Shown: positions 15,477 to 30,522 of the stretch, one piece after another
Layout of the letters: every line of letters begins with the position of its first letter
How positions within the stretch are numbered: the first letter of the stretch is position 1
Assembly: GCA_037442505.1 (NCBI GenBank)
Contig: JBBIPZ010000023.1
Span: 1 to 34,686 of the forward strand
From: JBBIPZ01 sp037442505 [NCBI: Deltaproteobacteria bacterium]
GTDB taxonomy: Bacteria > CALINM01
Length of the DNA: 34,686 nucleotides
Reading direction: 5' to 3'
Notes under the pieces: model-generated
What the model saw: only the letters and a program-made list of their open reading frames with translations
What the model was told of the DNA's origin: nothing
Databases searched by the model: none
Made by a program: the position numbers and the translations under genes

Positions 15477-17669
15477 ATGAAGTTTAGCATCAGATACAAA
15501 GTATATCTTGCATTCTTATCGTTATCGATTCTTCCGCTAATTATTTTGTCATATATAAGCATCTATAGCCTCAAAGAAAATGGGAAAAAATTGATAAACG
15601 ATTCCATAGGCAACCTTGAAAAAGAAGAAGAAAAAAGATTAACTAAAGAGGCTGAGAATTATGCACGTATAGTTTCTGAATTTTTAAATGAACGGGCAAA
15701 TGAGTTAAAAGAGTTGTCTTCACAACCTTTAAAAGAAAAAAATATTCAACTATTTTACGAAACTAAAAAAGGAAAAGTCTGGCATGCAATCAAAACTGCT
15801 GCAGGAATAAAAGAAGTAAAGCAGTACTTACCGCTTTATAAAGAAATTGCTTTTATAGATGTAAATGGTAACGAAAAGATTGCCATCAAAAACGGCAGAC
15901 TTGTCCCCGCAAACTTACTTAAAAATATTACACTTCCAGTAAATACTACATATTTGAACGAGGACTATTTCCGAAAAGTGAAGCAACTGAAAAACGGTGA
16001 AATCTATTTGTCTGAGCTAAAAGGATTTGCGATGACAAAAAAAGACCAGATTGGTGATGCTGCTAAACCAGAAGATGTTAAAGGTGGAAAGCATTATGAT
16101 GGTGTATTGCGGTTTTCTACACCTATATACGAAAACAATGTTTTTAAAGGCATTTTAACTATCGCACTCGACCATATTCACTTACAGGAATTAACAATAC
16201 ACATAGACCCACGATATGGTAGCAACACCGTATATGCCGGGTACGATTCGGGAAATTATGCGTTTATTTTTGATATAAATGGTTGGATTATCTCTCATCC
16301 AAAATACTGGGATCTACCGGGTGTTTACAAGAATGGCAAAGAAAAACGTTATATGACTGTAAAAAGCTCTAAACAAGATATAGATAAAGGTTACGAAGGA
16401 TTTAATTTAGATTATGCAGGTTTTATATCTGAGGGGTATCCCATTGCAGCAAAAGAAGTCAGAGAAGGGAAAAAGGGTATTGTTACCGTAACTAACGTTG
16501 GTGGTGTGCGCAAAGTGATGGCTTACGCGCCTATCTTTTGCAATCTAAAACCATACGATAAACTGAAGGTTTTTGGTGGCTTTACTTTGGGGGAAAGACT
16601 GGAAGATTTTAGCGAATCTGCACTCCATTCTCAGCAAACACTTATAGAGATGCTCGATAAATACCAAAAAAATATTGGAGCACTCTTTTTGTTTATAATT
16701 TTTTTGGTAGCTTTTTTGGGTGCGATTTTTTCTAAACATATAACAGAACCTATACTTTACCTTTCCAAAAAGTCACGCTTTATAGGTGAAACTAACTTTG
16801 ATTATTGGGAAAAGATTGACAGAAACGATGAAATCGGCGAACTGGCAAATCTTTTTTATGAGATGAACAAAAAGATTAGCGAACAAACAGCCGAATTGAA
16901 AATGTCTATGGCAGAAATTGAAAAGAATAAACGCCAGCTGGAAGAGTATAATCAATATTTGAAAAAAGAGATCGATATTTTAAAGGACGAAAAGTTCAGA
17001 CAGGTAGATAGATTATCGTCTATTGGGAGGTTGGCGGCAGGACTTGCTCACGAAATTAGAAATCCCCTGACAGGTATTACACTTTTTCTTGATGATCTTC
17101 ACGACAGGTTGTGTGGCGATAACGAATCGCAAAAATTAATTGTACACGCACTAAAAGAGATAGAAAGGGTGGAAAAGTTAATCAGCGAATTATTATATTT
17201 TTCATCATCAAAACCGTCTGAACGAATAAGCTTTGAGGTTTCTTCTTTGTTAGATTCTATAATTGTTTTTGTAAACAAAATTTGTGAAAAGAGTGGCATA
17301 AAGATTGTGATGGATAGTCAAAAAGATATTTTTATTACAGCAGACAAGGAAAGGCTTAAACAGGCTGTTTTAAATGTTGTTTTAAACGCAGTTCAAGCTA
17401 TGGGAAATGGTGGAGTATTGACAATTGTTGCAAAATCAGCTATGAAAAATGATGAAGATTGTCTTTTGCTACAGGTGAAAGATACTGGTAAAGGACTTGA
17501 AGAATCAGATTTTGAAAAGATTTTCGAACCATTTTATACATCAAGAAAGGAAGGCACGGGCTTGGGTTTGGCTATAGCACGCAGTATTATCAATGAACAT
17601 CAAGGCATAATTCTTGCAAAAAATTGGGATAAGGGGGCTTTGTTTGAAATCTGGCTACCCCTTAAATAA
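15477..17669 (+). CDS. Membrane sensor histidine kinase (Cache-type sensor, HAMP, HisKA, HATPase)
   Basis: A 730-residue transmembrane kinase. Membrane segment 1 is at about 9-29; a large periplasmic region (about 35-395) resembles a double Cache sensor, as in DctB-type kinases that bind carboxylates or amino acids; segment 2 is at 399-419; a HAMP region and an E/K/L-rich coiled coil lead to the HisKA helix with phospho-acceptor H525 (GLAHEIRNPLTGI). The ATPase domain has the N box NVVLNAVQAM, DTGKG and GTGLGLAIA, all intact. Its partner is the regulator starting four bases downstream. Position directly upstream of a Liv-type uptake operon suggests it senses the solute that operon imports; the ligand is not readable from sequence. 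Confidence 0.93.
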   Translation: MKFSIRYKVYLAFLSLSILPLIILSYISIYSLKENGKKLINDSIGNLEKEEEKRLTKEAENYARIVSEFLNERANELKELSSQPLKEKNIQLFYETKKGKVWHAIKTAAGIKEVKQYLPLYKEIAFIDVNGNEKIAIKNGRLVPANLLKNITLPVNTTYLNEDYFRKVKQLKNGEIYLSELKGFAMTKKDQIGDAAKPEDVKGGKHYDGVLRFSTPIYENNVFKGILTIALDHIHLQELTIHIDPRYGSNTVYAGYDSGNYAFIFDINGWIISHPKYWDLPGVYKNGKEKRYMTVKSSKQDIDKGYEGFNLDYAGFISEGYPIAAKEVREGKKGIVTVTNVGGVRKVMAYAPIFCNLKPYDKLKVFGGFTLGERLEDFSESALHSQQTLIEMLDKYQKNIGALFLFIIFLVAFLGAIFSKHITEPILYLSKKSRFIGETNFDYWEKIDRNDEIGELANLFYEMNKKISEQTAELKMSMAEIEKNKRQLEEYNQYLKKEIDILKDEKFRQVDRLSSIGRLAAGLAHEIRNPLTGITLFLDDLHDRLCGDNESQKLIVHALKEIERVEKLISELLYFSSSKPSERISFEVSSLLDSIIVFVNKICEKSGIKIVMDSQKDIFITADKERLKQAVLNVVLNAVQAMGNGGVLTIVAKSAMKNDEDCLLLQVKDTGKGLEESDFEKIFEPFYTSRKEGTGLGLAIARSIINEHQGIILAKNWDKGALFEIWLPLK

Positions 17670-17673
17670 AAAA

Positions 17674-19041
17674 ATGAACAGTATTTTAGTCATTGATGAT
17701 GAAGAATTTATCCGTGAAAATCTGACGCGTATCCTCAGTAATGATGGATATATCGTTAAGGTTGCAAAAACAGGCAAAGAGGGCATTGATACTGTTAGCA
17801 CAAACGAAGTTGATCTCATACTTTTGGATCTTAATCTGCCTGATATTAATGGTATAGATGTATTAAAAAATGTAAAGCAGTTGTCGCCATCAACTCTTGT
17901 GATAGTTATAACTGGCTATGCAACTGTTGACTCAGCTGTAGCAGCATTAAAGTTGGGCGCTTACGATTATATAAAAAAGCCTTTCAAGGCAGACGCAATC
18001 AAACTAATTGTCAAACTGGCACTTGAAACACAACTTTTAAGGAAAGAGGTTGATGTCTTAAAAAAGATGACAAGAAGCGAAACTACGCTGATTGCTGAAA
18101 GTTATGCGATGAAAAATGTGTTTAAAATAGCTACAGACGTTGCCCAACATTCAGATACCGGTGTTCTTATTACAGGAGAAAGTGGCACAGGAAAAGAAGT
18201 TGTCGCCCGCTTTATTCACCAAAACAGCAGTAGAAGTACATTTCCTTTTATCGATATAAATTGTGCAAGCCTTCCTGAACAGTTGCTGGAAAGCGAGTTA
18301 TTTGGATATGAGAAAGGTGCGTTTACAGACGCAAGGTCTTCTAAAACGGGGCTTTTTGAAGAGGCAAATCACGGCACACTCTTTCTGGACGAAATTGCCG
18401 AAATGTCACTTCCTTTGCAAGCAAAATTATTACGTGTGATAGAAAACAAGAGCTTCAGAAAGGTTGGGGGAAACAAAAATATTCAGCTTGATATAAGGAT
18501 AATTGCTGCAACTAATAAGAATTTAAAAAAGGCAGTCTCAGAGAAGACCTTTCGTGAAGACCTTTATTACCGTCTGAATGTGTTTCCGATACATATTCCC
18601 CCATTAAGAGAGAGAAAAGACGATATCATACCACTCACCAGGCTTTTTTTAAAACATTTTTCTAAAAAGTTTGGTAAAAATATGACAGGGCTAAACGAAG
18701 ATGTCAGGGATGTGTTGTTAAACTATTCATGGAAGGGTAACGTTAGAGAGCTAAAAAATATGATAGAGAGGGTATGTATAGTTCATAATGACACTGAATT
18801 GAGATTAGAGCATATCCCATTGGATATTAAAGAAGAAACGATAATGCAAACGGCTCAAAAAACGGAAGTTGAGTCTTTGCACGAAAAAATTGACGAAACA
18901 GAAAAAGCTCTGTTATTAGATGCCCTTTATAAAACAGGTGGCAATGTATTGAAGGCAGCAAAGCTTCTTGGCATCCCCCGTGGTACATTGAGACATAAAA
19001 TCCAGAAACATAACATTTCAGTGGCTAAAATTAGCCAATAA
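17674..19041 (+). CDS. NtrC-family sigma-54-dependent response regulator
   Basis: A 455-residue enhancer-binding activator. The receiver domain begins directly (SILVIDDEE) with phospho-acceptor D52 and conserved K in DYIKKPFK. The AAA+ domain has Walker A GESGTGKE near 168, the sigma-54 contact loop GAFTDA at 215-220 (most members have GAFTGA), and Walker B FLDEIAE with D239-E240. A Fis-type helix-turn-helix (VLKAAKLLGIPRGTLRHKI) ends the protein. ATG 17674 is chosen because an upstream TTG at 17614 would lie within the kinase gene and add a non-homologous tail. It should be phosphorylated by the adjacent kinase and act at -24/-12 promoters; one such element lies 244 bases after its stop, before livK. 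Confidence 0.95.
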   Translation: MNSILVIDDEEFIRENLTRILSNDGYIVKVAKTGKEGIDTVSTNEVDLILLDLNLPDINGIDVLKNVKQLSPSTLVIVITGYATVDSAVAALKLGAYDYIKKPFKADAIKLIVKLALETQLLRKEVDVLKKMTRSETTLIAESYAMKNVFKIATDVAQHSDTGVLITGESGTGKEVVARFIHQNSSRSTFPFIDINCASLPEQLLESELFGYEKGAFTDARSSKTGLFEEANHGTLFLDEIAEMSLPLQAKLLRVIENKSFRKVGGNKNIQLDIRIIAATNKNLKKAVSEKTFREDLYYRLNVFPIHIPPLRERKDDIIPLTRLFLKHFSKKFGKNMTGLNEDVRDVLLNYSWKGNVRELKNMIERVCIVHNDTELRLEHIPLDIKEETIMQTAQKTEVESLHEKIDETEKALLLDALYKTGGNVLKAAKLLGIPRGTLRHKIQKHNISVAKISQ

Positions 19042-19052
19042 AGGCTTTTTTT
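19033..19052 (+). terminator. Weak terminator-like hairpin at the end of the response regulator gene
   Basis: AGCC (19033-19036) can pair with GGCT (19043-19046), followed by a run of T. The neighbouring GGCTAA/TTAGCC pair (19023-19028 with 19031-19036) and GTGGC/GCCAC (19021-19025 with 19054-19058) are alternatives, so the region is self-complementary, but no single stem is strong. Confidence 0.35.
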
Positions 19053-19078
19053 GGCCACGGGTAAAAAAGGGTAAAAAA

Positions 19079-19097
19079 GGGGACAGGTCAATTATCT
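19079..19097 (+). repeat. Interspersed 19-base repeat, copy 2
   Basis: GGGGACAGGTCAATTATCT, preceded by two tandem copies of the ten-base unit gtaaaaaagg (19061-19080). It is in direct orientation to copy 3, 99 bases downstream, and in opposite orientation to copy 1 near the window start. It lies in the 297-base gap between the response regulator gene and livK; no transposase remnant could be recognised in that gap. Confidence 0.75.
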
Positions 19098-19139
19098 CTT
19101 TTTGATGTTTCTGTTTTGTTCTATCTTGTCTGGCAAGCG

Positions 19140-19175
19140 TTTTCAAATATTTGTAAGCTCACAACGTTTTGAAAA
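19140..19175 (+). promoter_or_regulatory. Inverted repeat, possible enhancer site upstream of livK
   Basis: TTTTCAAA (19140-19147) and TTTGAAAA (19168-19175) are perfect inverted arms 20 bases apart, and CAAATATTTG (19144-19153) is itself a perfect ten-base palindrome. The centre is about 150 bases upstream of the predicted sigma-54 start, a usual distance for an enhancer-binding regulator. It also abuts repeat copy 3, so it could instead belong to that repeat element. Confidence 0.3.
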
Positions 19176-19177
19176 AA

Positions 19178-19196
19178 GGGGACAGGTCTATTATTT
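19178..19196 (+). repeat. Interspersed 19-base repeat, copy 3
   Basis: GGGGACAGGTCTATTATTT, one mismatch to copy 1 (reverse orientation) and two to three to copy 2. It directly follows an inverted-repeat arm at 19168-19175. The copies resemble a dispersed non-autonomous element or its ends rather than a gene. Confidence 0.75.
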
Positions 19197-19264
19197 TTGA
19201 ATTTCTTGCCAACAGGGACCGGGAATGTTCACGCCAGTGTAAAAAAGTTTTCAAATGGCTTTTT

Positions 19265-19293
19265 TTGTTTGTTAATCAATTTTTTGGTATAAT
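19265..19293 (+). promoter_or_regulatory. Sigma-70-like promoter before livK
   Basis: A perfect -10 TATAAT (19288-19293) lies 17 bases after TTGTTT (19265-19270), which matches only the first half of the -35 consensus. It overlaps the -24/-12 element at 19285-19300, so the two polymerase forms would compete for the site if both are real. Confidence 0.5.
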
Positions 19294-19300
19294 AGTTGCA
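19285..19300 (+). promoter_or_regulatory. Sigma-54 -24/-12 element before livK
   Basis: TGGTATAATAGTTGCA matches the consensus TGGCACG-N4-TTGCW at 9 of 12 informative bases, with GG (19286-19287) and GC (19298-19299) exactly ten bases apart and a perfect TTGCA. The start would be near 19311, with AAGGAGG (19324-19330) and the livK ATG at 19339 well placed. A sigma-54 activator gene ends just upstream. Confidence 0.6.
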
Positions 19301-19338
19301 TATATAAAAAACCATTTTATTTTAAGGAGGGTGTATTT

Positions 19339-20535
19339 ATGAAAAAAGTAGTTTTAGCCTTTTTAGCGTTACTCCTACTTTCGTATGGAGCAAAAGCACA
19401 CGCAGATGAAATTGTGTTTGGTGCAGCTTTGTCTCTGACAGGCAAACTTGCCAAAGAAGGAAATCTTGTAAAGAGTGGTTACGAACTTTGGAAAGAAATG
19501 GTTAACAAAAAGGGTGGTATCAAGATCGGCAACAAGAAATACAAGGTCAACATTAAGTACTATGACGATGAAAGTGATCCTAACAGAGGCGCTAAGTTGG
19601 TAGAAAAGCTAATCACGGAAGACAAAATTAAATTGATACTAGGACCTTATGGAAGCGAATCTGTTTTTGCTACCAGTGCGATAACTGAAAAGTATGGTGC
19701 ACTTATGGTGCAGGGTGGTGCAGCAGCTGACAAGCTATACACAAGGGGATTTAAAAACCTTTTTGGTATTTATACCGTAGCCACAGAGTATATGGACGAT
19801 ATATTAGAAATGTTGAGAAATAAATCACCTAAACCTGCTACAGTTGCGATAATTTATTCTAATGACCTATTTTCTGCACAAGTAGCTCAAGGTGCAAAAA
19901 AATCTGCAGAAAAGTATGGCTACAATGTTGTTCTTTACAAAGATTATCCTAAAGGTACTCAGGACCTTTCTACAGTAATTGTTGAAATTAAAGGCAAAAA
20001 CCCCGATATTATACTTGGTTGTGGACATTTTCAGGATACAATCGTGATAGTGAAACAGAGCAAGGATTATAAAGTTAATCCTAAAGCTCTCGCATTTTCT
20101 GTAGGCCCAGCACTTCCTGACTTTGTTGATTCTTTAAAGTCAGATGCAGAGAACGTGTTGGGTGCAGCACAATGGACAACTACACTTAAGTATAAAGACC
20201 CTGTCTTTGGTTCAAATACTGAGTTTGTTAAGGCATATAAGGCAAAGTATAAAGAAGATCCAGCATATCATGCGGCAGGTGGAGCAGCTGCAGGCGTTAT
20301 CTTTCAAAGAGCTATCGAGAAGGCTGGCACAAAGGATGATATTGCAAAAATCAGGACGGCTCTAAGTAACTATAGCGAAGAGACTCTTTACGGAAAAATA
20401 AAGTTTGACCAGACTGGAAAGGTTGTTGGTAAAGGCATGGCTGTAATACAGATACAAAATAGAAGTCAGAGGACTGTATACCCAGAGGCTGTTGCAGAGT
20501 CTAAGGCAGTTTATCCAAAACCAGCATGGAAGTAA
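19339..20535 (+). CDS. livK: Liv-type ABC transporter periplasmic binding protein
   Basis: The extracytoplasmic receptor of a HAAT-family importer. A 22-residue signal peptide (MKKVVLAFLALLLL then AKAHA before DE) leads to a mature protein of about 376 residues starting IVFGAALSLTGKLAKEG, the ligand-loop start of type I periplasmic binding proteins. GPYGSESVFATSAI and FGIYTVATEYMDD are further family landmarks. Relatives bind branched-chain amino acids, amides, urea or aromatic acids, so the name is positional. The malic enzyme at the end of the operon and the carboxylate-type sensor kinase upstream hint at an organic acid instead. AAGGAGG is a strong ribosome binding site. A hairpin after the gene probably lets it be expressed above the membrane genes. 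Confidence 0.9.
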   Translation: MKKVVLAFLALLLLSYGAKAHADEIVFGAALSLTGKLAKEGNLVKSGYELWKEMVNKKGGIKIGNKKYKVNIKYYDDESDPNRGAKLVEKLITEDKIKLILGPYGSESVFATSAITEKYGALMVQGGAAADKLYTRGFKNLFGIYTVATEYMDDILEMLRNKSPKPATVAIIYSNDLFSAQVAQGAKKSAEKYGYNVVLYKDYPKGTQDLSTVIVEIKGKNPDIILGCGHFQDTIVIVKQSKDYKVNPKALAFSVGPALPDFVDSLKSDAENVLGAAQWTTTLKYKDPVFGSNTEFVKAYKAKYKEDPAYHAAGGAAAGVIFQRAIEKAGTKDDIAKIRTALSNYSEETLYGKIKFDQTGKVVGKGMAVIQIQNRSQRTVYPEAVAESKAVYPKPAWK

Positions 20536-20550
20536 ATCGCATATAGTTTT

Positions 20551-20577
20551 AAAGGGTGAGGCTTTGCCTTACCCTTT
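20551..20577 (+). promoter_or_regulatory. Intercistronic hairpin between livK and livH
   Basis: AAAGGGTGAGGC (20551-20562), loop TTT, GCCTTACCCTTT (20566-20577): a 12-pair stem with a single G-U pair. Only four T follow, so it is at most a partial terminator. A stem here would protect the livK message and reduce read-through into livH, as in other binding-protein operons. Confidence 0.65.
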
Positions 20578-20606
20578 TCATTCAACACTATCTTACGAGG
20601 TATCTT

Positions 20607-21485
20607 ATGATAATTTTGCAGATATTGGTTAACGGATTTTTGTTAGGTGGATTTTATACACTTATTGGGGTAGGCTTTACCCTTGTCTGGGGTGTTACTA
20701 ATATTATAAATCTTGCACACGGCGCTATTGCTTTACTTGGTGCATACATTACTTATTTTATTTTTCAGTATTGGCACCTAGACCCTTTTGTCACGCTTCC
20801 AGTAAGCTTTTTATCAATGTTTCTTTTTGGTTATGTTTTACAACGCTATTTAATGAATCTGGTTGTGAAAGCCCAAATTTTTATGTTGCTGATACTCACA
20901 TTTGGGCTTGAGATATTTTTAGTCAACTTTATGACAACGTTTTTTTCTGCGGATTTTAAGTCGGTTACACCCGACTATGCAGGCAGCAGTCTTGTGTTAG
21001 GTGATATTGTGATACCCTATATAAGATTGGGTGTTTTTGCTATATGTGTGATAGTAACGCTTCTGATGAGTTTTTTCCTGGATAGGACTTGGACGGGTAA
21101 GGCTATCAAAGCTACATCCCTTGATATAGAGGCTGCAATGATGTCAGGCATTAACCCGGCAAAAATTTATGCGCTAACATTTGCATTTGGCTCAGGACTT
21201 GCGGGGCTTTCTGGTTCTCTTCTATCCTTGACGCAGGCTTTTTCTCCAAATATTGCAGGTGGGTTGACTTTGAGGGCTTTTATAGTCAGCATTTTAGGTG
21301 GCTTAGGGCGTATAGAAGGTGCATTTTTGGGTGGTTTAGTTTTAGGAGTTGTTGAAACAATGAGTTCGTATGTTATTGGTGAGAGTTACAAAAATGCAAT
21401 AGCTTTCGGCTTGATGGTGTTAATGCTTATTATTAAACCTTCGGGACTTTTGGGCAGAAAATATTATGCGGAGGTTAAACACTAA
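20607..21485 (+). CDS. livH: Liv-type ABC transporter permease LivH
   Basis: The first of two inner-membrane permeases of the importer. About 292 residues with roughly eight hydrophobic segments, beginning ILQILVNGFLLGGFYTLIGVGFTL and containing the conserved NLAHGAIALLGAY and, near the C-terminus, LGGLGRIEGAFLGGLVLG, the loop that contacts the ATPases. The ATG at 20607 is preferred, with ACGAGG (20595-20600) six bases upstream; an in-frame ATT/ATG-less extension back to 20556 would begin inside the livK-livH hairpin. Its TAA shares one base with the ATG of livM. Confidence 0.93.
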   Translation: MIILQILVNGFLLGGFYTLIGVGFTLVWGVTNIINLAHGAIALLGAYITYFIFQYWHLDPFVTLPVSFLSMFLFGYVLQRYLMNLVVKAQIFMLLILTFGLEIFLVNFMTTFFSADFKSVTPDYAGSSLVLGDIVIPYIRLGVFAICVIVTLLMSFFLDRTWTGKAIKATSLDIEAAMMSGINPAKIYALTFAFGSGLAGLSGSLLSLTQAFSPNIAGGLTLRAFIVSILGGLGRIEGAFLGGLVLGVVETMSSYVIGESYKNAIAFGLMVLMLIIKPSGLLGRKYYAEVKH

Positions 21486-22444
21486 TGCTGATTAAAAAAC
21501 TCTTTTTATTTTTAATTTTTCTTTTGATTCTGGTGTTTTTACCGTTTGTAATATCAGGTTACTGGTTACGCGTTTTAACCCAAACCTTTCTTTTTGCCGC
21601 TATTGCAACAGGAAGCAACATTATTATAGGATACACAGGATACCCTGCGTTTGGTAATATAGCCTTTTTTGGCGTCGGCGCCTATGTTACAGGTGTTCTT
21701 ATGACAAAATATGAGATGGGCTTTTTAGCAACACTACCATTTAGTGCTTTAGCTGGAATCATTTTAGCCTCTATACTTGGTATACCAATTTTAAGATTGA
21801 AAGGACATTATTTTGCTATTGCCACTGTTGGCATTATGGAAACTATAAGAGAGCTTGTTGATAATATGACAGAACTAACAGGTGGAGGACTCGGGCTTAC
21901 GCTACCAATTATGCAGGGTGAGCCAGAGTTTATTTACAAATATTTTTATTTTGCCATGCTTATTTGTCTCGTTTTTGCCCTTCTGATTTCGTTTGTAGTT
22001 TCAAAAATTAAGTTGGGATATGCTTTAAAGGCAATCAGGGTAGATGAAGATGCTGCAAGCGTTATGGGCATAAATACACCACTGTATAAAACCGCTGCAT
22101 GGGCAGTTAGTGCTGCGATAGTAGGCGTCTGCGGAGGAATTTATGCTTACTGGCTTAGTTATATAGATCCGCATACAGTTTTTGTAGGAACATATTCTGT
22201 TAAGATGTTTGCTATGATACTCTTGGGCGGTGGTACAACGGTGATTGGACCGATGTTGGGTGCTTTTATCCTTGAACTTATCTCAGAAGTAGTGTGGAGT
22301 AAATTTATAGCTATTCACGGTATGGTTCTGGGGCTTCTTATCATTTTTATCATTCTATTTTTGCCAAAGGGGCTTTTTGAGACCTTTAAAGGCGGTTTTA
22401 GTTTTAAAAAGCTTTTCAGCAATTTGAGAGAAAACAAACTTTAA
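21485..22444 (+). CDS. livM: Liv-type ABC transporter permease LivM
   Basis: The second inner-membrane permease, 319 residues, with an N-terminal hydrophobic stretch (LFLFLIFLLILVFLPFVI) and further segments. Landmarks are NIIIGYTGYPAFGNIAFFG near residue 45, LRLKGHYFAIATVG, and the ATPase-contact loop ILLGGGTTVIGPMLGAFIL near the C-terminus. It pairs with LivH to form the membrane channel. The start overlaps the livH stop by one base, and livG follows after ten bases with AAGGGG as ribosome binding site. Confidence 0.93.
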   Translation: MLIKKLFLFLIFLLILVFLPFVISGYWLRVLTQTFLFAAIATGSNIIIGYTGYPAFGNIAFFGVGAYVTGVLMTKYEMGFLATLPFSALAGIILASILGIPILRLKGHYFAIATVGIMETIRELVDNMTELTGGGLGLTLPIMQGEPEFIYKYFYFAMLICLVFALLISFVVSKIKLGYALKAIRVDEDAASVMGINTPLYKTAAWAVSAAIVGVCGGIYAYWLSYIDPHTVFVGTYSVKMFAMILLGGGTTVIGPMLGAFILELISEVVWSKFIAIHGMVLGLLIIFIILFLPKGLFETFKGGFSFKKLFSNLRENKL

Positions 22445-22454
22445 GGGGAATATT

Positions 22455-23192
22455 ATGGTGTTACTGGAAGCTAAAAATGTTGCCAAAAGTTATGGTGGTC
22501 TTAAGGTTCTAACTGACGTGACGTTTAATGTAAATAAAGGCGAAATTGTAGGAATTATTGGCCCTAATGGCGCTGGTAAAACAACATTTATGAATCTCGT
22601 TTCACGGCTGACAAACATAACAGGCGGTGTAATCAATTATAAAGGACAACCTATCAATAATAAAAAGCCACATGAAATTGCAAAACTTGGCATTGCAAGG
22701 ACGTTTCAGGTTGTAAAACCATTTGGAGGTCTTTCTGTTCTTGAGAATGTAATGGTTGGTGCCTTTTATGGCAAAAGAAACGTAAATTCCAAAAAAGAGT
22801 CGATGGAAGTTGCTGAAGAAGCATTAAAAGTTGTTGGACTTGAAGATGTAAGGCATAAAGACCCCCGGATTTTACCTCTTGCAAAGCGTAAAAAATTAGA
22901 AGTTGCAAGGGCTCTGGCGATGGGACCAGATTTGTTGCTTTTGGACGAAGTAATGGCAGGACTTGGTGCTAAAGAACTTAATGATATGATGACAGAAATT
23001 ATTAAGCTTAAAGAAAAAGGCATAACGATTATTGCTATAGAACATGTTATGAAGGCGATAATGGGTATTTCTGACAGGATAGTTGTCTTGCATTTAGGAA
23101 AACTTATTTGCGAAGGGACTCCGCAAGAGGTGGTAAAAAATCCAGCCGTTATTGAGGCTTATTTAGGTTCAAAATACGCAAAAAAGGAGTAA
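22455..23192 (+). CDS. livG: Liv-type ABC transporter ATPase LivG
   Basis: One of two cytoplasmic ATPases driving the importer; 245 residues. Walker A is GPNGAGKTT (residues 36-44), Walker B LLLLDEVMAGL. The signature helix reads LPLAKRKKLEVARAL, without the LSGGQ core; LivG proteins commonly vary here, though this copy has neither glycine nor glutamine at the core. RTFQVVKPFGGLSVLENV is the typical Q-loop region of LivG and distinguishes it from LivF. The gene is followed by livF after three bases, and the livF ribosome binding site AAGGAG is the end of livG. Confidence 0.93.
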   Translation: MVLLEAKNVAKSYGGLKVLTDVTFNVNKGEIVGIIGPNGAGKTTFMNLVSRLTNITGGVINYKGQPINNKKPHEIAKLGIARTFQVVKPFGGLSVLENVMVGAFYGKRNVNSKKESMEVAEEALKVVGLEDVRHKDPRILPLAKRKKLEVARALAMGPDLLLLDEVMAGLGAKELNDMMTEIIKLKEKGITIIAIEHVMKAIMGISDRIVVLHLGKLICEGTPQEVVKNPAVIEAYLGSKYAKKE

Positions 23193-23195
23193 TGC

Positions 23196-23900
23196 ATGGC
23201 TCTTTTAGAGGTGAAAAATTTAAATACAGGATATGGCGATTTACAGATACTAAGGGATATTAATTTAGTTGTTGAAAAAGGCGAAATTGTATCACTTTTG
23301 GGTTCTAACGGTGCTGGCAAGACAACCTTTATGAGAACTGTTTTTGGCTTGAATAGGGTCTGGAGTGGAGAAATCATTGTTAATGGTGAAAATGTTGCAA
23401 ATCAATCTTCCACCAAAGTTGTTAGCTCCGGTCTTAGCATTGTTCCTGAAGGTAGAAGACTTTTTGCAGGCATGACAGTTACAGATAATCTCGAGATGGG
23501 GGCTTTTACAAATAGAAAATCTATTAAAGAAAGAATCGAAATGATATTTTCTATTTTCCCTCGTCTTTATGAGAGACGCAATCATCTTGCTGGCGATCTT
23601 TCTGGAGGAGAACAGCAGATGGTTGCGATTGGAAGGGCGTTAATGAACAATCCTAAGGTTTTGCTGATAGATGAGTTTTCCTTGGGCTTAGCGCCGACTG
23701 TTGTTGAAAATCTTGTAAAAGTAGTTCAAAACATTCACGAAAATGGAGTGAGTATTCTTATTGTGGAACAGGATGTTCAGATGGTGCTTGAGCTAAGCCA
23801 CAGAGCCTATGTTATGGAAACAGGTAGTATAGTTTTAACAGGTGAATCTAAGGAACTCATCAATAATTCTAAAATTAAAGAGGCGTATTTAGGCATCTAA
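23196..23900 (+). CDS. livF: Liv-type ABC transporter ATPase LivF
   Basis: The second ATPase, 234 residues, with Walker A GSNGAGKTT, a full signature LSGGEQQMVAIGRALM and Walker B LLIDEFSLGLAP. YGDLQILRDINL at the start and IVPEGRRLFAGMTVTDNLEMGAF are typical of LivF. With a degenerate LivG signature, the canonical signature of LivF would make the two ATP sites unequal. The malic enzyme starts 11 bases after the stop, with AAGGAG before its ATG, so it belongs to the same transcript. Confidence 0.94.
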   Translation: MALLEVKNLNTGYGDLQILRDINLVVEKGEIVSLLGSNGAGKTTFMRTVFGLNRVWSGEIIVNGENVANQSSTKVVSSGLSIVPEGRRLFAGMTVTDNLEMGAFTNRKSIKERIEMIFSIFPRLYERRNHLAGDLSGGEQQMVAIGRALMNNPKVLLIDEFSLGLAPTVVENLVKVVQNIHENGVSILIVEQDVQMVLELSHRAYVMETGSIVLTGESKELINNSKIKEAYLGI

Positions 23901-23911
23901 AGGAGATTTTT

Positions 23912-25318
23912 ATGTTGAAACCAACGCCAAGCTTTAGCGTTACTGTTCGCGTAGAGTATCCAAATGTTGTAGGAATGCTTGGAAAGCTTACATCTCTAAT
24001 TGGTGAGTCAGGAGGTGACATAGGATCTATTGACATAGTTAAGATAAGCAAAAACACAATTACAAGGGATATAACCTTTTCCGGTGCAAACGAAGAACAT
24101 GTTCACAAAATAGTTGATGTCATTAAAGGCATAGAAAACGTTAAGGTTAAGCATGTTACAGACAAAACCTTTGCTGTTCATCATGGCGGCAAAATTTCTA
24201 TTCAGTTAAAGCATAACATTAACACAAGGGATGATTTATCAATGGTTTACACACCAGGAGTTGCAAGGGTGTGTATGGATATTTACAAAAATCCAAAACA
24301 TGTGTACAACTTTACTATAAAAGGCAACGCTGTAGCAATTGTCACAGATGGAACTGCAGTTCTTGGGCTTGGTAATATTGGCCCTTATGCTGCATTACCT
24401 GTTATGGAAGGCAAGGCTATGCTTTTTAAGCAGTTTGCTGATGTTGATGCCTACCCGATATGTATTAACACAACAGAGACAGATGAGATAATAAAAACTG
24501 TCAAACTGATTTCTCCTGTATTTGGTGGTATTAATTTAGAGGACATCTCTGCCCCTCGTTGCTTCGAAATTGAGGAGAGATTGAGAAAAGAACTTGATAT
24601 ACCTGTGTTTCATGATGATCAGCATGGCACTGCGGTGGTGGTGCTTGCTGCGTTATACAATGCCTTAAAATTGGTTAAAAAGGAGATTGATAAAATTAAA
24701 GTAGTTGTTTCTGGTGCTGGTGCTGCAGGGCTTGCTTGTGTTAAGCTTCTTATTTATGCAGGTGTTGATGCTGGTAAAATTATTGTTTGCGACAGTAAAG
24801 GAAGTATTTATGATGGTAGAGAGAAAGGGATGAACAACTACAAGGTAGAGATTGCAAAAATCACTAATAAACAAATGATAAAAGGCACTGTGCATGACGC
24901 ATTAAAAGGTGTTGATGTGTTTATAGGCACTTCTGGACCGGGGCTTCTTACAGGAGAGGACATAAAAAATATGGCTTCAGATGCCATAGTGTTTGCTATG
25001 GCAAACCCAGTTCCTGAGATTATGCCAGAAGAAGCTGTTCCATATGCAAGGATTATTGCCACTGGAAGATCTGACTATCCAAACCAGATAAACAATGTGC
25101 TTTGCTTCCCTGGCTTTTTTAGGGGCTTGCTTGATTCAAAGGCAAAAACTGTAACTTATGAAATGAAGATCGCCGCCGCACAGGCAATAGCGTCTTTAAT
25201 TAAAACAAACGAACTTAACGAAGATTATATTATTCCATCACCGTTTGATAAAAGAGTACCGAAGGTTGTTGCAAAGGCTGTTGAGACTGTCGTAAAAAAA
25301 AGAAAACTTACAAAATAA
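23912..25318 (+). CDS. ACT-domain malic enzyme
   Basis: Oxidatively decarboxylates malate to pyruvate and CO2 with NAD or NADP. Residues 7-85 form an ACT domain (SVTVRVEYPNVVGMLGKLTS), a small-molecule regulatory fold; the catalytic part follows with Y113 (YTPGVA), K168 (EGKAMLFKQFAD), metal ligands E210-D211 and D236 (HDDQHGTAVV), and the dinucleotide loop GAGAAG (268-273). At 468 residues it is the short bacterial type with an N-terminal ACT domain. Cofactor preference cannot be told. It is the last gene of the livKHMGF transcript, 11 bases after livF, and ends at a strong terminator. This placement suggests that the transported compound is metabolised through malate or C4 acids. Confidence 0.93.
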   Translation: MLKPTPSFSVTVRVEYPNVVGMLGKLTSLIGESGGDIGSIDIVKISKNTITRDITFSGANEEHVHKIVDVIKGIENVKVKHVTDKTFAVHHGGKISIQLKHNINTRDDLSMVYTPGVARVCMDIYKNPKHVYNFTIKGNAVAIVTDGTAVLGLGNIGPYAALPVMEGKAMLFKQFADVDAYPICINTTETDEIIKTVKLISPVFGGINLEDISAPRCFEIEERLRKELDIPVFHDDQHGTAVVVLAALYNALKLVKKEIDKIKVVVSGAGAAGLACVKLLIYAGVDAGKIIVCDSKGSIYDGREKGMNNYKVEIAKITNKQMIKGTVHDALKGVDVFIGTSGPGLLTGEDIKNMASDAIVFAMANPVPEIMPEEAVPYARIIATGRSDYPNQINNVLCFPGFFRGLLDSKAKTVTYEMKIAAAQAIASLIKTNELNEDYIIPSPFDKRVPKVVAKAVETVVKKRKLTK

Positions 25319-25349
25319 AAAAGGGTGCCAGAAGGCACCCTTTTTTTTT
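25317..25349 (+). terminator. Bidirectional intrinsic terminator between malic enzyme and acs
   Basis: GGGTGCC (25323-25329), loop AGAA, GGCACCC (25334-25340), with an A tract before and nine T after. It works for the malic enzyme on the plus strand and for acs on the minus strand, whose stop codon is at 25351-25353. Confidence 0.92.
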
Positions 25350-25350
25350 C

Positions 25351-27342
25351 TTAGATGCCAAATCTCCCCGACTTTTTACCTTCAATAATTATTCCTACTA
25401 CAGTAGGATCTGCAAGTGTTGTTGTATCACCAATATTTTCGAATTCGTTTTCAGCAACTTTTCTTAAAATTCTTCTCATAATCTTGCCACTTCTTGTCTT
25501 TGGCAGATTTGGAACGAAATGGAGTATATCAGGTGTAGCTATAGGTCCAATCTCCTTTCTAACATGCTGAATGAGTTCTTTTCTTAACTCTTCTGAAGCG
25601 GTAAACCCTTCTTTTAATATGACATAAGCGTATATGCCCTGACCTTTAATATCATGGGGCATACCTACAACCGCCGCTTCTGCCACGGATGCATGTGATA
25701 CAAGGGCGCTTTCCACCTCAGCTGTACCAATACGATGACCGGAGACGTTTATAACGTCATCTACACGTCCCATCAACCAGAAGTATCCATCTTCATCCTT
25801 TCTTGCACCGTCACCAGTAAAGTATTTACCTTTAAACATAGTAAAATAAGTTTGTCTAAACCTTTCATGGTCGCCATACACCGTTCTCATCATTCCAGGC
25901 CATGATTTTTCAATAACAAGCTTTCCACCTTCGTTAACGCCAACTTCGTTACCGTTGTCGTCAACAACCTTTGGTACTACACCAAAAAATGGCAAGCCAG
26001 CAGAACCTGGTTTCTGGAAGGAAGCGCCAGGAATTGTAGCTATTAAATGCCCCCCAGTCTCTGTCTGCCACCAGGTATCAACAATAGGGCATTTGTTTCT
26101 GCCTATGTGTGTATTATACCATACCCATGCCTCTGGATTAATTGGCTCACCAACCGTGCCAAGAAGCCTAAGTGAAGATAGATTTCTTCCATTAGGCCAC
26201 TGTTCTCCATCCCTCATCATCGCCCTTATAGCGGTAGGAGCTGTATAGAAAATGTTTACTCCATACTTTTCTACCACTTCCCAGAAACGATCTGGCTTTG
26301 GATAATTTGGTACGCCTTCAAAGACGAAAGAGGTTGCGCCAAAGGCAAGAGGTCCGTAAACGATGTAGCTATGGCCTGTTACCCAACCAATATCAGCTGT
26401 GCACCAGAATAAATCGTTATCTTTGTAGTCAAAAACATACTTGAATGTAGAGGTGACATACAATAAATAACCGCCTGTGGTGTGTAAAACGCCTTTAGGC
26501 TTACCGGTGCTTCCTGACGTATATAGAATAAACAGCGGATCTTCTGCATCCATCTTTTCTGGTTCGCAGTAGTCTTTTAATTCTGGATCTGCCATAAGCT
26601 CATGCCACCAGTAGTCTCTACCTTCTTTCATGTTGACTGGGTTGCCTGTCCTTTTAAAAACAACTACGGTTTTAATTGAAGATGCTTTTGGATCGTTTAA
26701 TGCCTCATCAACATTTTTCTTTAGTGGCACGATCTTGCCTGCTCTTAAACCTTCATCAGCCGTAATTAAAAAGGTTGATTTTGCGTCATCTATACGATCA
26801 ACGATGGACGAAGGGCTGAAACCAGCAAAAATTATGCTATGTATCGCTCCAATCCTTGAGCATGCAAGCATTGCAATTGGAAGTTCCAGTATCATAGGTA
26901 GATAAATTGTTACTCTATCACCTTTCTTAACTCCAAGCTTCTTTAACACGTTAGCAAATCTGTTGACTTCTCTGTAAAGTTGTCCATAAGTTAATGTTCT
27001 GGTTTCGTAATTATCGCCTTCCCAAATTAAAGCAGCCTTATTTCTTCTCCATGTCTTGATATGCCTGTCCAGACAATTGTAGCTAACATTGAGCTTTCCC
27101 CCCTTGAAATACTCAATCTTAGCATTCTCAAAATCATAATTTTCAACCTTCTGCCAATCGGTGCTATACCAGTCAAGCAGTTCCTTAGCCAAATCACCCC
27201 AGAATCCTTCAGGATCATTAACTGAACGATCATAAAGACGTTTGTACTCTTCGTAACTCTTAATATACGCTTGCTCAACAAACTCTTTTGGTGGGTCGAA
27301 TTTTCTCGACTCCTGTTTTAAAGACTCCATCTTTTCTGCCAT
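25351..27342 (-). CDS. acs: Acetyl-CoA synthetase (AMP-forming)
   Basis: Activates acetate to acetyl-CoA through acetyl-AMP. The 663-residue chain has the intact A3 loop [19 protein letters not shown] near 272, the A5 region [11 protein letters not shown] near 424 (the second W closes the acyl pocket to short acids, known from the Salmonella enzyme), the hinge [17 protein letters not shown], and [15 protein letters not shown] near 618, whose Lys is the catalytic residue often controlled by acetylation. Specificity for acetate over propionate is likely but not proven. GGAGGAGGGAG (complement of 27346-27356) precedes the ATG. It is transcribed away from the iclR-type regulator, with which it shares a 262-base control region. 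Confidence 0.94.
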
Positions 27343-27379
27343 AAACTCCCTCCTCCTTTATTTTTGTAAATCATCTTTT

Positions 27380-27408
27380 ATCATATTGAATGTTACTCAG
27401 TCAAGCAA
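27380..27408 (-). promoter_or_regulatory. Possible acs promoter
   Basis: On the minus strand a -10 TATGAT (27385-27380) lies 17 bases after TTGCTT (27408-27403); TTGACT (27404-27399) overlaps the latter but is too close to the same -10. Both halves together are only moderate. Confidence 0.4.
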
Positions 27409-27443
27409 ATTAGTAAAACAAAACGACTTTGTGAAAAAAATAA

Positions 27444-27459
27444 TTTTTAAATTTAAAAA
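27444..27459. promoter_or_regulatory. 16-base perfect palindrome between divergent acs and iclR
   Basis: TTTTTAAATTTAAAAA reads the same on both strands and sits between the predicted acs and iclR -35 elements. A shorter TTTTAAAA palindrome follows at 27465-27472, just before the iclR -35, and another occurs at 28557-28564 in the 5' leader of the second synthetase gene. They could be operators for the IclR-type regulator, but such patterns also arise by chance in AT-rich DNA. Confidence 0.3.
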
Positions 27460-27475
27460 CAGGGTTTTAAAATTC

Positions 27476-27505
27476 TTGACATTTAAGTTTAAAAATGATT
27501 ACATA
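27476..27505 (+). promoter_or_regulatory. Possible promoter of the iclR-family gene
   Basis: A perfect -35 TTGACA (27476-27481) is followed after 18 bases by TACATA (27500-27505), a weak -10. The leader would be about 90 bases and very AT-rich, with AAAGGAG before the ATG at 27605. Confidence 0.45.
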
Positions 27506-27604
27506 GTATTGTAGATTTAAAACGATTTTTGTTTTATGAATTTTTTGTATTTGTTGTTTAAAAATAAAATTAAAAAATTGTAATAGAAAGGAGATTGGCT
27601 ATTT

Positions 27605-28405
27605 ATGAAGTTAAAAGAAAGAAAAAAAAGTAAAAAGGAGTATGTGATTCAATCTGTAGTTCATGCAATTGATTTATTAGAGGCTTTTAAAGGGGATACA
27701 GATGAGTTAGGCGTTACGGAGCTAAGTAAAAAGCTTTCATTACATAAAAATAACGTTTTTCGCTTGCTTGCTACCTTAGAGCTACGTGGCTATATAGAAC
27801 AGGATAAACAGACTGGTAACTATAAACTTGGCGTGAAGGTGCTTGAGTTAGGACAGCAGTTTGTGAAACATCTTGGTCTTTTGAGACAGGCGCATCCTGT
27901 TATGCGTGACCTTTTGGCTAAATGCAACGAGAATATTTATATTAGTGTTTTAAGAGGCAACAACTGTGTTTACATAGATGGTTTAGAAGCAAATCAGGTA
28001 GTAAAAGTTACATCAAGGATAGGCAACAGGCTGCCACTTCACGCTACTGCATCTGGTAAGGTATTGCTCGCCAACGAAACTGAGGATGAGCTACTAAAAT
28101 ATTTCCCACAGGAAGAATTGAAAAAATTTACTGATAATACAATTATTTCTCGTAAAGAACTGTTCGAACAGATAGAGCACGCTCATGAAAATGGTTATGC
28201 ACTTGATATGGAAGAGCTGGATTTAGGCGTGAGATGTGTTGCCGCCCCGATTCGTGACTATACAAGAAAGGTTGTTGGAGCAATCTCAATTTCTGCCCCA
28301 TCACTAAGAATGGATGACGACAAGATAAAAAATTTCTTTGTTCCGCTTGTTAAAGAAGCGGCAAAAGAAATTTCGCATAGGCTTGGGTTTTTAGAAGAAA
28401 ATTGA
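27605..28405 (+). CDS. IclR-family transcription regulator
   Basis: A 266-residue regulator. A basic N-terminal tail (KLKERKKSKKE) precedes the winged helix-turn-helix (about 15-80: SVVHAIDLLEAF, LGVTELSKKLSLHKNNVFRLLATLELRGYI), followed by the GAF-like effector domain with ISVLRGNNCVYID, RLPLHATASGKVLLA and VRCVAAPIRD, all family hallmarks. IclR proteins bind small organic acids such as glyoxylate, pyruvate or aromatic acids and control nearby catabolic genes. Here it lies between divergently transcribed acs and a second acyl-CoA synthetase gene, so control of one or both is the obvious inference. The ATG follows AAAGGAG at a normal distance. The effector is unknown. Confidence 0.92.
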   Translation: MKLKERKKSKKEYVIQSVVHAIDLLEAFKGDTDELGVTELSKKLSLHKNNVFRLLATLELRGYIEQDKQTGNYKLGVKVLELGQQFVKHLGLLRQAHPVMRDLLAKCNENIYISVLRGNNCVYIDGLEANQVVKVTSRIGNRLPLHATASGKVLLANETEDELLKYFPQEELKKFTDNTIISRKELFEQIEHAHENGYALDMEELDLGVRCVAAPIRDYTRKVVGAISISAPSLRMDDDKIKNFFVPLVKEAAKEISHRLGFLEEN

Positions 28406-28510
28406 CAGCAAAAATCAGTATGTTATAACTTCTATCAACAATTGAAAGTTCAGATGTTGCGCCTTGTTTTTTATTTATACTAAATTTTTTTTTGTATCAA
28501 TAAAAAAACA

Positions 28511-28539
28511 TTGACACGTTATTTTTTTACTGTTATATT
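28511..28539 (+). promoter_or_regulatory. Sigma-70-type promoter of the second acyl-CoA synthetase gene
   Basis: TTGACA (28511-28516) and TATATT (28534-28539) are 17 bases apart. The start would be near 28546. TTTTAAAA (28557-28564) directly before GGGAGG (28565-28570) is a possible operator in the leader. Confidence 0.8.
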
Positions 28540-28575
28540 TCATAAACAAAATAATGTTTTAAAAAGGGAGGGTTT

Positions 28576-30522
28576 ATGGAACAAAAGGGGAGTAAGGTGG
28601 AGTTAATTCCGCCTCAGGTGAAAAGCTTTTTAAAGTGGGGGTACGAAGATTTAGAAGGTTTCTGGGAAAATGCGGCTTTATGTTCAATGGATGAGATTTA
28701 TTGGTTTAAAAAATGGGACAGATGTTTTGAATGGCAGTATCCAACATTCAAATGGTTTGTTGGCGGATTAACTAACATATGTTTTAGTGCGGTTGACTAC
28801 AATGTAATGAAAGGTCGTGCTGGAAAGGCTGCGATAATTTCTGAAATAGCAGAAACGGGAGAGACAAGGGTAGTCACCTATGGTCAACTTTTACATCTTG
28901 TAAAACAATATGCAGCTGCCTTAAGAGGAATGGGGGTAAAGAAAGGCGATAGGGTAGTTATCTATATGCCTATGGGTATAGAGCCAGTGGTAAGTATGCT
29001 TGCTTGCGCAAGGATTGGCGCAATCCATGTGGTCATATTTGCCGGATTTTCATACAAAGCAGTTGCGGATAGAGTGAACTTATCTGGTGCAGAATATATA
29101 TTGACGCAGGATGTCAACCACAGAAGAGGGGCAACTATAGAACTCAAAAAGGTTATTGACGATGCGTTGAACGAGGTGCCTGAAGGACAGGTAAAAAAAG
29201 TAGTCGTGCTTAAGAAGACTCATGACACAGAAAGGCCAATGAAGCCTGGTAGAGACATATTTTGGGAAGAGTTTCTAAGTTACGCAGAGGGACAAAGCAG
29301 TGAGGTAGAGATGATGGAGTCAAACGAACCATTATTTTTACTTCCTACATCTGGAACTACCGCAAAGCCAAAGGTTACGGTCCATGTCCATGGTGGTTAT
29401 CAACAGTATGTTTATTCAATGGGACAGTGGATATACAAGATAAGACCGAATGATGTCTGGTTCGCAACTTCTGACATTGGCTGGATTGTTGGACATAGTT
29501 ATAACGTTTATGGTCCTTTAATATCTGGATGTACAACAGTATTATACGAAGGAACACCTGACTACCCAAGGAAAGATATGATTTTCGACGTCATCGAAAG
29601 GAATAAAGTTTCTGCTTTATGGATATCTCCAACAGGAGTTAGGGGTTTGATGAAATTAGGTATTGAAGAGGCAAGAAAGCATAATTTGTCTTCTGTAGAA
29701 AGGGTCTTCTGTGCAGGCGAAGTGTTAAATCCTGCTGCGTGGGAGTGGCTACAGAAAGAAGTATTTGAAGATAAAATACCTGTCATAGACCATATGTGGC
29801 AAACAGAGACATCAGGACCGGTCATCGCAAATCCTTACGGGCTGACAATGTATCCCATTAAGCCGGGCTCATCTTCTTTAGCGGCACCTGGTGTACAGGT
29901 TGATATTATTGATGAAAAAACCGGTAGACCTTGCGAGCCGGGTGAAAAAGGCATCTTTGTGATTAAAAAACCTTTTCCGGGACTTACCCCAACACTCTGG
30001 GGAGAACCAGAAAGATATAAAACAGATTATTGGGAAAAGATTGACACATTGAAAGGAATGTATTGCTCAGGTGATGGTGCGTATCGTGACGAGGACGGCT
30101 ACATCTGGTTTGTTGGACGTTCTGATGAAGTAATTAAGATTTCTGCTCATAGAATTGGAACCATTGAGATTGAGAATGCACTTATATCTCATCCAGCAGT
30201 TGCAGAATCTGGTGTTTCTGGCGTTCCAGATGAGTTCAGAGGAGAGGTCGCTTGTGCATTTGTAGTTTTAAAAACAGGCTATACACCTTCAGAGGAGCTA
30301 AAGAAAGAATTAATCCAGCATATTAGAAATGTGATGGGACCTATTGTAGTTATGAAGGATATTCAGTTTGTTAAGATGCTTCCTAAAACAAGAAGTGGCA
30401 AGATTATGAGACGTGTAATGAAAACACTATGGCTGGGTAAGGATTTGGGAGACCTTTCTACGATAGAAGATGGAGCTTCGGTTGAAGAAATTAAAGAAGC
30501 CATAGGCAAGATGAAAGAATAA
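28576..30522 (+). CDS. Divergent acetyl-CoA synthetase-like acyl-CoA ligase
   Basis: An AMP-forming acyl-CoA synthetase of 648 residues, clearly related to Acs over its full length. The A3 phosphate loop reads PTSGTTAKPKVTVHVHGGY (257-275): the two glycines usual in TGxPKG are replaced by A263 and V267. The rest is conserved: HMWQTETSG with W408, E411, the hinge GDGAYRDEDGYIWFVGR, and [11 protein letters not shown] with catalytic K609. The retained W suggests a small acyl pocket (acetate, propionate or a similar acid). It has its own strong promoter and GGGAGG site and follows the iclR-type gene. It may be a specialised ligase for another short acid; the true substrate is open. Confidence 0.85.
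   Translation: MEQKGSKVELIPPQVKSFLKWGYEDLEGFWENAALCSMDEIYWFKKWDRCFEWQYPTFKWFVGGLTNICFSAVDYNVMKGRAGKAAIISEIAETGETRVVTYGQLLHLVKQYAAALRGMGVKKGDRVVIYMPMGIEPVVSMLACARIGAIHVVIFAGFSYKAVADRVNLSGAEYILTQDVNHRRGATIELKKVIDDALNEVPEGQVKKVVVLKKTHDTERPMKPGRDIFWEEFLSYAEGQSSEVEMMESNEPLFLLPTSGTTAKPKVTVHVHGGYQQYVYSMGQWIYKIRPNDVWFATSDIGWIVGHSYNVYGPLISGCTTVLYEGTPDYPRKDMIFDVIERNKVSALWISPTGVRGLMKLGIEEARKHNLSSVERVFCAGEVLNPAAWEWLQKEVFEDKIPVIDHMWQTETSGPVIANPYGLTMYPIKPGSSSLAAPGVQVDIIDEKTGRPCEPGEKGIFVIKKPFPGLTPTLWGEPERYKTDYWEKIDTLKGMYCSGDGAYRDEDGYIWFVGRSDEVIKISAHRIGTIEIENALISHPAVAESGVSGVPDEFRGEVACAFVVLKTGYTPSEELKKELIQHIRNVMGPIVVMKDIQFVKMLPKTRSGKIMRRVMKTLWLGKDLGDLSTIEDGASVEEIKEAIGKMKE

Follow-up and report, generated by a model that had tools for sequence, protein, structure and literature searches.

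C4-dicarboxylates usually enter the cell by ion-driven carriers of the DctA, Dcu, DASS and TRAP types. In DctB/DctD systems, a Cache sensor kinase and a sigma-54 activator control uptake through dctA or DctPQM, and in the malate loci maePE-maeKR of Lactobacillus casei and MalKR/maeN/ywkA of Bacillus subtilis a sensor is found together with a permease and a malic enzyme (ME). The subject of this analysis is a stretch of 34,686 nt from the genome JBBIPZ01 sp037442505 (contig JBBIPZ010000023.1), hereafter the window, in which eight genes at positions 15477-25318 encode a two-component system, a HAAT-type importer and an ME. As in the DctB/DctD-run dctA and DctPQM systems, a Cache-like kinase and a sigma-54 activator precede an uptake operon, but the importer is of the ABC type rather than DctA or TRAP, and the regulator scores best with AtoC. 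The sense-import-decarboxylate layout of the Lactobacillus and Bacillus loci is likewise present, although in these the carriers are secondary and the regulators are of the CitB type, without sigma-54. With E. coli LivJ/K-LivHMGF and with UrtABCDE the importer has in common the five-gene set, the protein families and the LIVBP-like fold, but its LivK does not keep the alpha-amino residues and its partners are C4 enzymes.

The eight open reading frames (ORFs) are uninterrupted and all on the forward strand, and ORF calling and Pfam bore out the families and the order given for them in the earlier note:

15477..17669, + strand: membrane sensor histidine kinase, 730 aa (Pfam HisKA and HATPase_c, dCache_1 below threshold)
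17674..19041, + strand: NtrC-type response regulator, 455 aa from ATG 17674, with receiver, sigma-54 AAA+ domain and Fis-type HTH (Pfam Response_reg, Sigma54_activat and HTH_8)
19339..20535, + strand: livK, HAAT-type substrate-binding protein, 398 aa (Pfam Peripla_BP_6)
20607..21485, + strand: livH, permease (Pfam BPD_transp_2; ORF open from GTG 20556)
21485..22444, + strand: livM, permease (Pfam BPD_transp_2)
22455..23192, + strand: livG, ATPase (Pfam ABC_tran)
23196..23900, + strand: livF, ATPase (Pfam ABC_tran)
23912..25318, + strand: ACT-domain ME (Pfam ACT_4, malic and Malic_M), 11 bp past livF

The regulator likely starts at ATG 17674, because the ORF opening at TTG 17614 overlaps the kinase, and the start of livH was put near ATG 20607 because homologues begin there. 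From livK to ME the genes lie on a single strand with intergenic gaps of at most 71 bp, confirming a HAAT-type importer block whose last gene is ME. The set K-H-M-G-F is complete in one gene block, all members exceed the Pfam gathering scores, and the ME domains reach 100.3 bits (malic) and 84 bits (Malic_M) against cut-offs near 23. At the expected ABC signature (LSGGQ-like), LivG carries ILPLAKRKKLEVA and LivF carries LSGGE.

The reading preferred here, with a probability of roughly 0.55, is that these genes constitute a substrate-inducible uptake-and-use operon, in which a HAAT importer under sensor control takes up a carboxylate other than an amino acid, with a C4-dicarboxylate as the likeliest case. 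An organic acid would be sensed by the periplasmic Cache domain, and the kinase would phosphorylate the NtrC-type regulator, which would bind upstream, perhaps at a palindrome at 19022-19037, and drive sigma-54 RNA polymerase from 19284-19300, with livKHMGF-ME made as a single transcript. The ligand captured by LivK would be a carboxylate that has no alpha-amino group, malate, fumarate or succinate being the likeliest; LivHMGF would import it using ATP, and ME would convert malate into pyruvate and CO2. This direction of the ME reaction is presumed because the operon is sensor-controlled. Since in relatives the importer is accompanied by succinate dehydrogenase/fumarate reductase genes (SDH), and once also by fumarase, ME could be supplied from succinate and fumarate as well as from malate.

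Relatives of LivK with 77-84% identity were found in 11 other genomes, which together with the window give 12 loci, here termed clade A. Among 176 Thermodesulfovibrionales genomes, nine have a clade A LivK (at least 78% identity in the search) and 18 further genomes have only relatives of 34-39%; a wider draw of 395 genomes of the phylum of this order, at E 1e-110, returned the same nine. Clade A LivK also occurs in two (G001, G003) of the three genomes by which the small phylum of the window is sampled (G001, G003, G180). The formate-tetrahydrofolate ligase encoded in the window shares 92-93% identity with those of these three genomes and 64-76% with those of the six other genomes searched. 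All 12 loci have livKHMGF, with livK cut short and livF split in the G003 assembly.

In eight of the nine clade A Thermodesulfovibrionales, livK and SDH are found within 6.5 kb of ME, the ninth (G004) being without an ME match. The layouts are the following:

KHMGF-ME-SdhC-SdhA-SdhB: G132
FumC-ME / SdhA-SdhB-KHMGF: G023
ME / SdhAB-KHMGF: G002
SdhABCD / ME-KHMGF: five genomes

Neighbours were named by Pfam at four of these loci (L047, L048, L049, L062) and by blastp likeness at the other four. Two types of SdhA, 29% identical to each other, are represented, and G023 has a fumarase C neighbour (Pfam) as well.

The association was then viewed across the order, where 101 ME loci were fetched and 97 classified. 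Of the 41 ME loci with SDH, 8 have a clade A importer, 13 a more distant HAAT importer termed clade B and 8 a TAXI-TRAP transporter; in the remaining 12 no transporter was recognised. The 56 loci without SDH include one of clade B and none of clade A or TAXI. Liv genes are thus near ME in 21 of 41 loci with SDH vs 1 of 56 without (Fisher 4e-9, relatedness not corrected), a value to be read as an index and not as a probability, since the surveyed genomes are related. The ORF caller missed ME in 4 of the 101 loci (two being the same G033 gene), and 51 of the 97 surveyed stretches extend more than 5 kb on each side of ME. Clade B, whose LivK is 31% identical to that of clade A, lies near ME in 14 further genomes, 13 of them with SDH; it was assigned by LivK likeness, and in G175 by LivH and LivM. 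A common C4-importing ancestor of the two clades is possible, given a tree with few other HAAT proteins in it. The clade B systems with SDH and ME in Thermodesulfovibrionales (L101, L142, L145, L151 and others) are uncharacterised.

A replacement at a single locus adds to this picture. The block T2SSF-SdhDCBA-ME is present in 13 genomes (the G122 contig ends within SdhA), and the slot 3' of ME is occupied by livKHMGF in five of them and by TAXI-TRAP in eight. Three ORFs make up the TAXI cassette, coding for the binding protein (about 336 aa), a product of about 120 aa and a fused TRAP permease (about 650 aa). Its families were assigned by Pfam in L084 and L086, in L086 also by NCBIfam (TIGR02122, TIGR02123), and elsewhere by likeness. 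Past the cassette, the same next gene (L049_5 family) follows in four of the five Liv genomes and six of the eight TAXI genomes. The TAXI gene is absent in all five Liv genomes and present in all six tested of the eight, for which no LivK match was listed at E 1e-60; G004, which has LivK and no ME match, has a TAXI gene elsewhere (69%). Comparably, G021 and G023 share a fumC-ME-sdhAB cluster and the gene that follows (94% identical), and livKHMGF is found there in G023 only. The swapping of two unrelated uptake systems at one slot suggests one substrate or substrate class. TAXI-TRAP differs from HAAT in being of an unrelated protein family and ion-driven, as described in excerpts of two studies (PMC11574862, PMC12344293), and in the excerpted part of the former a Psychrobacter TAXI knockout suggested uptake of fumarate among other acids (PMC11574862).

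A broader proposition, which stands at about even odds, is that HAAT importers would be a regular C4-dicarboxylate route in Thermodesulfovibrionales and in the small further phylum of the window. At least two distant clades, A (including the window) and B (including G177), would serve ME/SDH loci, with clade A alternating with TAXI-TRAP at one locus and the lineage of the window placing it under a Cache kinase and a sigma-54 activator.

The AlphaFold2 model of LivK (predicted local distance difference test, pLDDT, 85.9) has a LIVBP-like fold, with Z 34-42 among the matches listed, leucine-binding proteins included, and its best structural match is 8wch (Z 42.4, root-mean-square deviation 2.9, 370 residues, 27% identity). 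This structure is the substrate-binding protein SAR11_0655 with co-purified L-pyroglutamate bound, a ligand without a free amine; it is the nearest solved structure to LivK by both sequence and fold, and its YPxPxW C-terminal end is similar. For pocket mapping, Ser79, Thr102, Tyr202 and Glu226 of LIVBP were taken to be the contacts of the alpha-amino acid. In comparison with E. coli LIVBP, the window LivK keeps Ser79 (Ser106), while Thr102 is replaced by Ala, Tyr150 by Phe and Tyr202 by His230. The place of Glu226 is non-acidic (Val255 in one alignment, Ala258 in another; Thr258 in other clade members). Throughout clade A, an acid at the Glu226 place is found in none of the 12 proteins, and all 12 have His for Tyr202 and Ala or Gly for Thr102 (Gly in two). 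In clade B the acid is absent in 13 of 15 rows (13 of 14 genomes, except G033) and Tyr is kept at the Tyr202 place, so the pockets of the two clades differ there.

Ten other HAAT-type binding proteins of these or sister genomes served as a comparison. In five, Thr102 and Tyr150 are conserved and the Glu226 place has an Asp, namely L182 (G180), L183 (G002), L184 (G001), L185 (G023) and L187 (G132), only two of which keep Tyr202; L186, two proteins in L188 and L189 have neither Thr102 nor the acid, and L190 has Asp without Thr. Four clade A genomes therefore also have a more orthodox binding protein (L183, L184, L185, L187). In addition, LivK scores 111.5 bits with PRK15404, the LivJ/LivK subfamily of NCBIfam, and does not reach its cut-off of 477. 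The predicted pocket lacks residues for holding the alpha-amino group, and branched-chain amino acids are unlikely ligands. His230, Lys36 and Lys39 may be the contacts of the carboxylates, although this is a guess; His230 and Lys36 are not peculiar to clade A, as many sensor-type relatives of 37% identity share both. LivK-like proteins of 32-38% identity in the Nitrospirota loci L027-L044 form a separate clade and are probably binding-protein-coupled sensors with a similar pocket. In five flank-annotated loci (L055-L059) a LivK-like gene adjoins a histidine kinase, and a Liv permease was not recognised.

Uptake of a C4 or related organic acid through a Liv-type importer had been suggested in the earlier note. 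The HAAT type, the pocket, the linkage to C4 enzymes and the replacement by TRAP all speak for it, whereas the literal gene order does not. The suggestion is thus borne out in part: comparison between genomes lends good support to a Liv-type importer of organic acids, with C4-dicarboxylates as the first choice of ligand.

With regard to sensing, the kinase matches dCache_1 with E 1.7e-9 and 38 bits, under the 45-bit gathering score of Pfam, and its extracytoplasmic dCache-like domain (about residues 37-398) is flanked by two transmembrane segments, as judged by eye. The domain is 62% identical to its counterpart in L001, the locus of G001. A sequence search of the PDB with this domain gave no credible solved relative, and its structure model, built from an alignment of two sequences only, has a pLDDT of 31.8. 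In NCBIfam the highest scores of the kinase core and the regulator, which stay under the cut-offs, are with AtoS and AtoC; the DctB/DctD-like character attributed to the pair consequently holds for the layout, a sensor kinase plus a sigma-54 activator, and not for family identity. In both the window and L001 the regulator has the motif GAFTDA instead of GAFTGA. Two sites lie between or at the borders of the regulator and livK genes:

19284..19300, + strand: sigma-54 promoter-like site TTGGTATAATAGTTGCA, 38 bp 5' of livK, -24/-12 type with 10 bases between GG and GC
19022..19037, + strand: 16-bp palindrome TGGCTAAAATTAGCCA, overlapping the regulator stop, candidate activator site

The general sigma-54 pattern with at most one mismatch occurs 9 times in the window vs 5.1 expected, which is no clear enrichment, and of its two exact matches the other one, at 31051, is inside a gene. 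The string TGG-N8-TTGCATATA, a pattern devised after both sites were known, occurs once in the window and in none of 100 shuffles, and the identical string is present in L001 at 9947, ahead of livK. It is plausible that the regulator has a predicted sigma-54 target promoter immediately 5' of livK, common to L001. The palindrome, whose form TGGC-N8-GCCA occurs twice in the window vs 0.34 expected, may serve as an activator site or belong to a weak terminator; L001 has a near-palindrome at 9805-9820, just 3' of the regulator stop, which MAFFT did not align with it. A gene for sigma-54, rpoN, was found in all 12 related genomes searched. In none of nine Nitrospirota loci scanned was a sigma-54 site found ahead of livK or ME, so sigma-54 control as in the window is not general. 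A repeat, GGGGACAGGTC, is present at 117, 15898, 19079 and 19178, exactly in three cases and with a mismatch in one, vs 0.15 copies expected. Two copies lie between the regulator and livK and were not seen in the L001 intergenic region; the sequence looks like a dispersed REP-type repeat.

Recurrence of the eight-gene order in other genomes, raised in the earlier note, was not found: the exact order is present in one of the 12 clade A loci, that of the window, and parts of it recur. The seven genes without ME recur once, in L001, which has in common with the window the order recN-GNAT-tldE-kinase-regulator-livKHMGF and is without ME after livF. The recN-tldE locus of G180 was considered as an empty site and dropped, as its contig ends about 225 bases past tldE. 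The window ME is 76% identical to those of G001 and G003 and 58-61% to the eight Nitrospirota ME compared, and in a quickly built tree of 94 ME proteins it groups with the former two (support 0.985). The window Liv genes, in turn, have Nitrospirota relatives nearly as close as those in G001: a concatenated Liv tree, LivF left out, places the window with G001 and G003 with weak support (82/77), and a LivK-only tree places it with G023/G132/G002 (96/86). That ME simply travelled with Liv was rejected on these grounds. Judged from these trees, the window ME is vertical within its phylum and the Liv genes probably crossed phyla, so the ME-Liv pairing of the window was not simply copied from Nitrospirota; either the two were joined independently, or an old arrangement has been lost from G001 and G003.

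More remote LivK relatives (41-46% identity) occur in 8 of 395 genomes drawn from the phylum of G005 (L005 is labelled Myxococcota). Among ten neighbouring proteins scanned were RmuC, Fis-type regulators and hydantoinase B, and the ME, SDH and fumarase queries had no match in these LivK loci, which are therefore of no help in naming the ligand.

Several observations weigh against the preferred reading. ME is present in 99 of the 176 Thermodesulfovibrionales genomes, commonly without Liv; 12 of the 41 SDH-linked ME loci are without a recognised transporter; an SDH gene was not recognised anywhere in the window; and within its phylum G001 and G003 have ME away from livK. The kinase sensor domain is present in one of 12 genomes searched (G001), and the promoter site and the palindrome each derive from two sequences only. 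The malic enzyme reaction is, moreover, reversible, and if ME works in the direction of malate, the substrate would be pyruvate or lactate. The importer would then take such a C3 acid, and ME, fumarase and SDH/fumarate reductase would work in reverse to build C4 acids. A keto or hydroxy acid would fit the lost amine-binding residues equally, and one HAAT protein, 4obb, is listed with a bound 2-oxo acid. Thermodesulfovibrio sp. N1 grows on lactate and pyruvate, according to excerpts of its description, in which malate, succinate and fumarate at millimolar levels are not used as electron donors, nor fumarate as an acceptor (PMC5165239). Against this, the Pfam-annotated neighbours include SDH, fumarase and ME, and a lactate or pyruvate enzyme was not recognised among them; a sensor-controlled operon ending in ME would also better fit an enzyme using the imported acid. 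A C3 substrate, the main rival to the C4 reading, is considered unlikely.

A further point of the same adverse kind is that the TAXI substrates named in the excerpts are mostly non-C4, namely glutamate, 2-oxoglutarate, 2-hydroxyglutarate and phthalate (PMC11574862, PMC12344293), so the replacement argues for a carboxylate and not for C4 acids alone. Another carboxylate, such as 2-oxoglutarate, pyroglutamate, glutarate or an acidic amino acid held unusually, would agree with the glutamate or 2-oxoglutarate taken by those transporters and with the pyroglutamate bound in 8wch, but the linked enzymes act on C4 and not C5 acids, and the usual amine-holding place is without an acidic residue; this appears improbable. 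Far less credit is due to an ordinary branched-chain amino acid importer standing before ME by chance, with a two-component system serving something else. It would account for the best NCBIfam names of the importer parts (LivK, UrtB, LivM, LivG and LivF, every score below cut-off), and it is opposed by the loss of pocket residues that five other HAAT-type proteins of these genomes retain, as well as by the repeated ME/SDH linkage and the TAXI-TRAP replacement.

If the C4 importer is real, it would represent an ATP-driven C4 route within a family whose routine annotation is 'branched-chain amino acid transporter'. Behind some of these labels in anaerobic and subsurface bacteria there would then be organic-acid importers, and the predicted carbon diets of uncultured lineages would change. 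In the open-licence literature searched for HAAT/Liv and dicarboxylates, no report of a HAAT C4 importer was found. LivK orthologues are available from related genomes, some of them nearly single contigs.

Among the ME loci of relatives, a methylenetetrahydrofolate reductase adjoins ME in L090, and ORFs of 293 aa beside ME in L089, L091 and L092 may be the same. In L171 (G117), ME is broken by a stop, with SDH and TAXI-TRAP ORFs alongside. Downstream of the operon, one further feature was noted:

25317..25346: bidirectional terminator-like hairpin with a 13-bp stem, between ME and the convergent acs

Because this hairpin is strong, acs, iclR and a second acyl-CoA ligase were taken as a separate unit. 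The adjoining region 25351-30522, a unit for acetate or propionate, encodes an acetyl-CoA synthetase, an IclR-type regulator and a second ligase that resembles acetyl-CoA synthetase.

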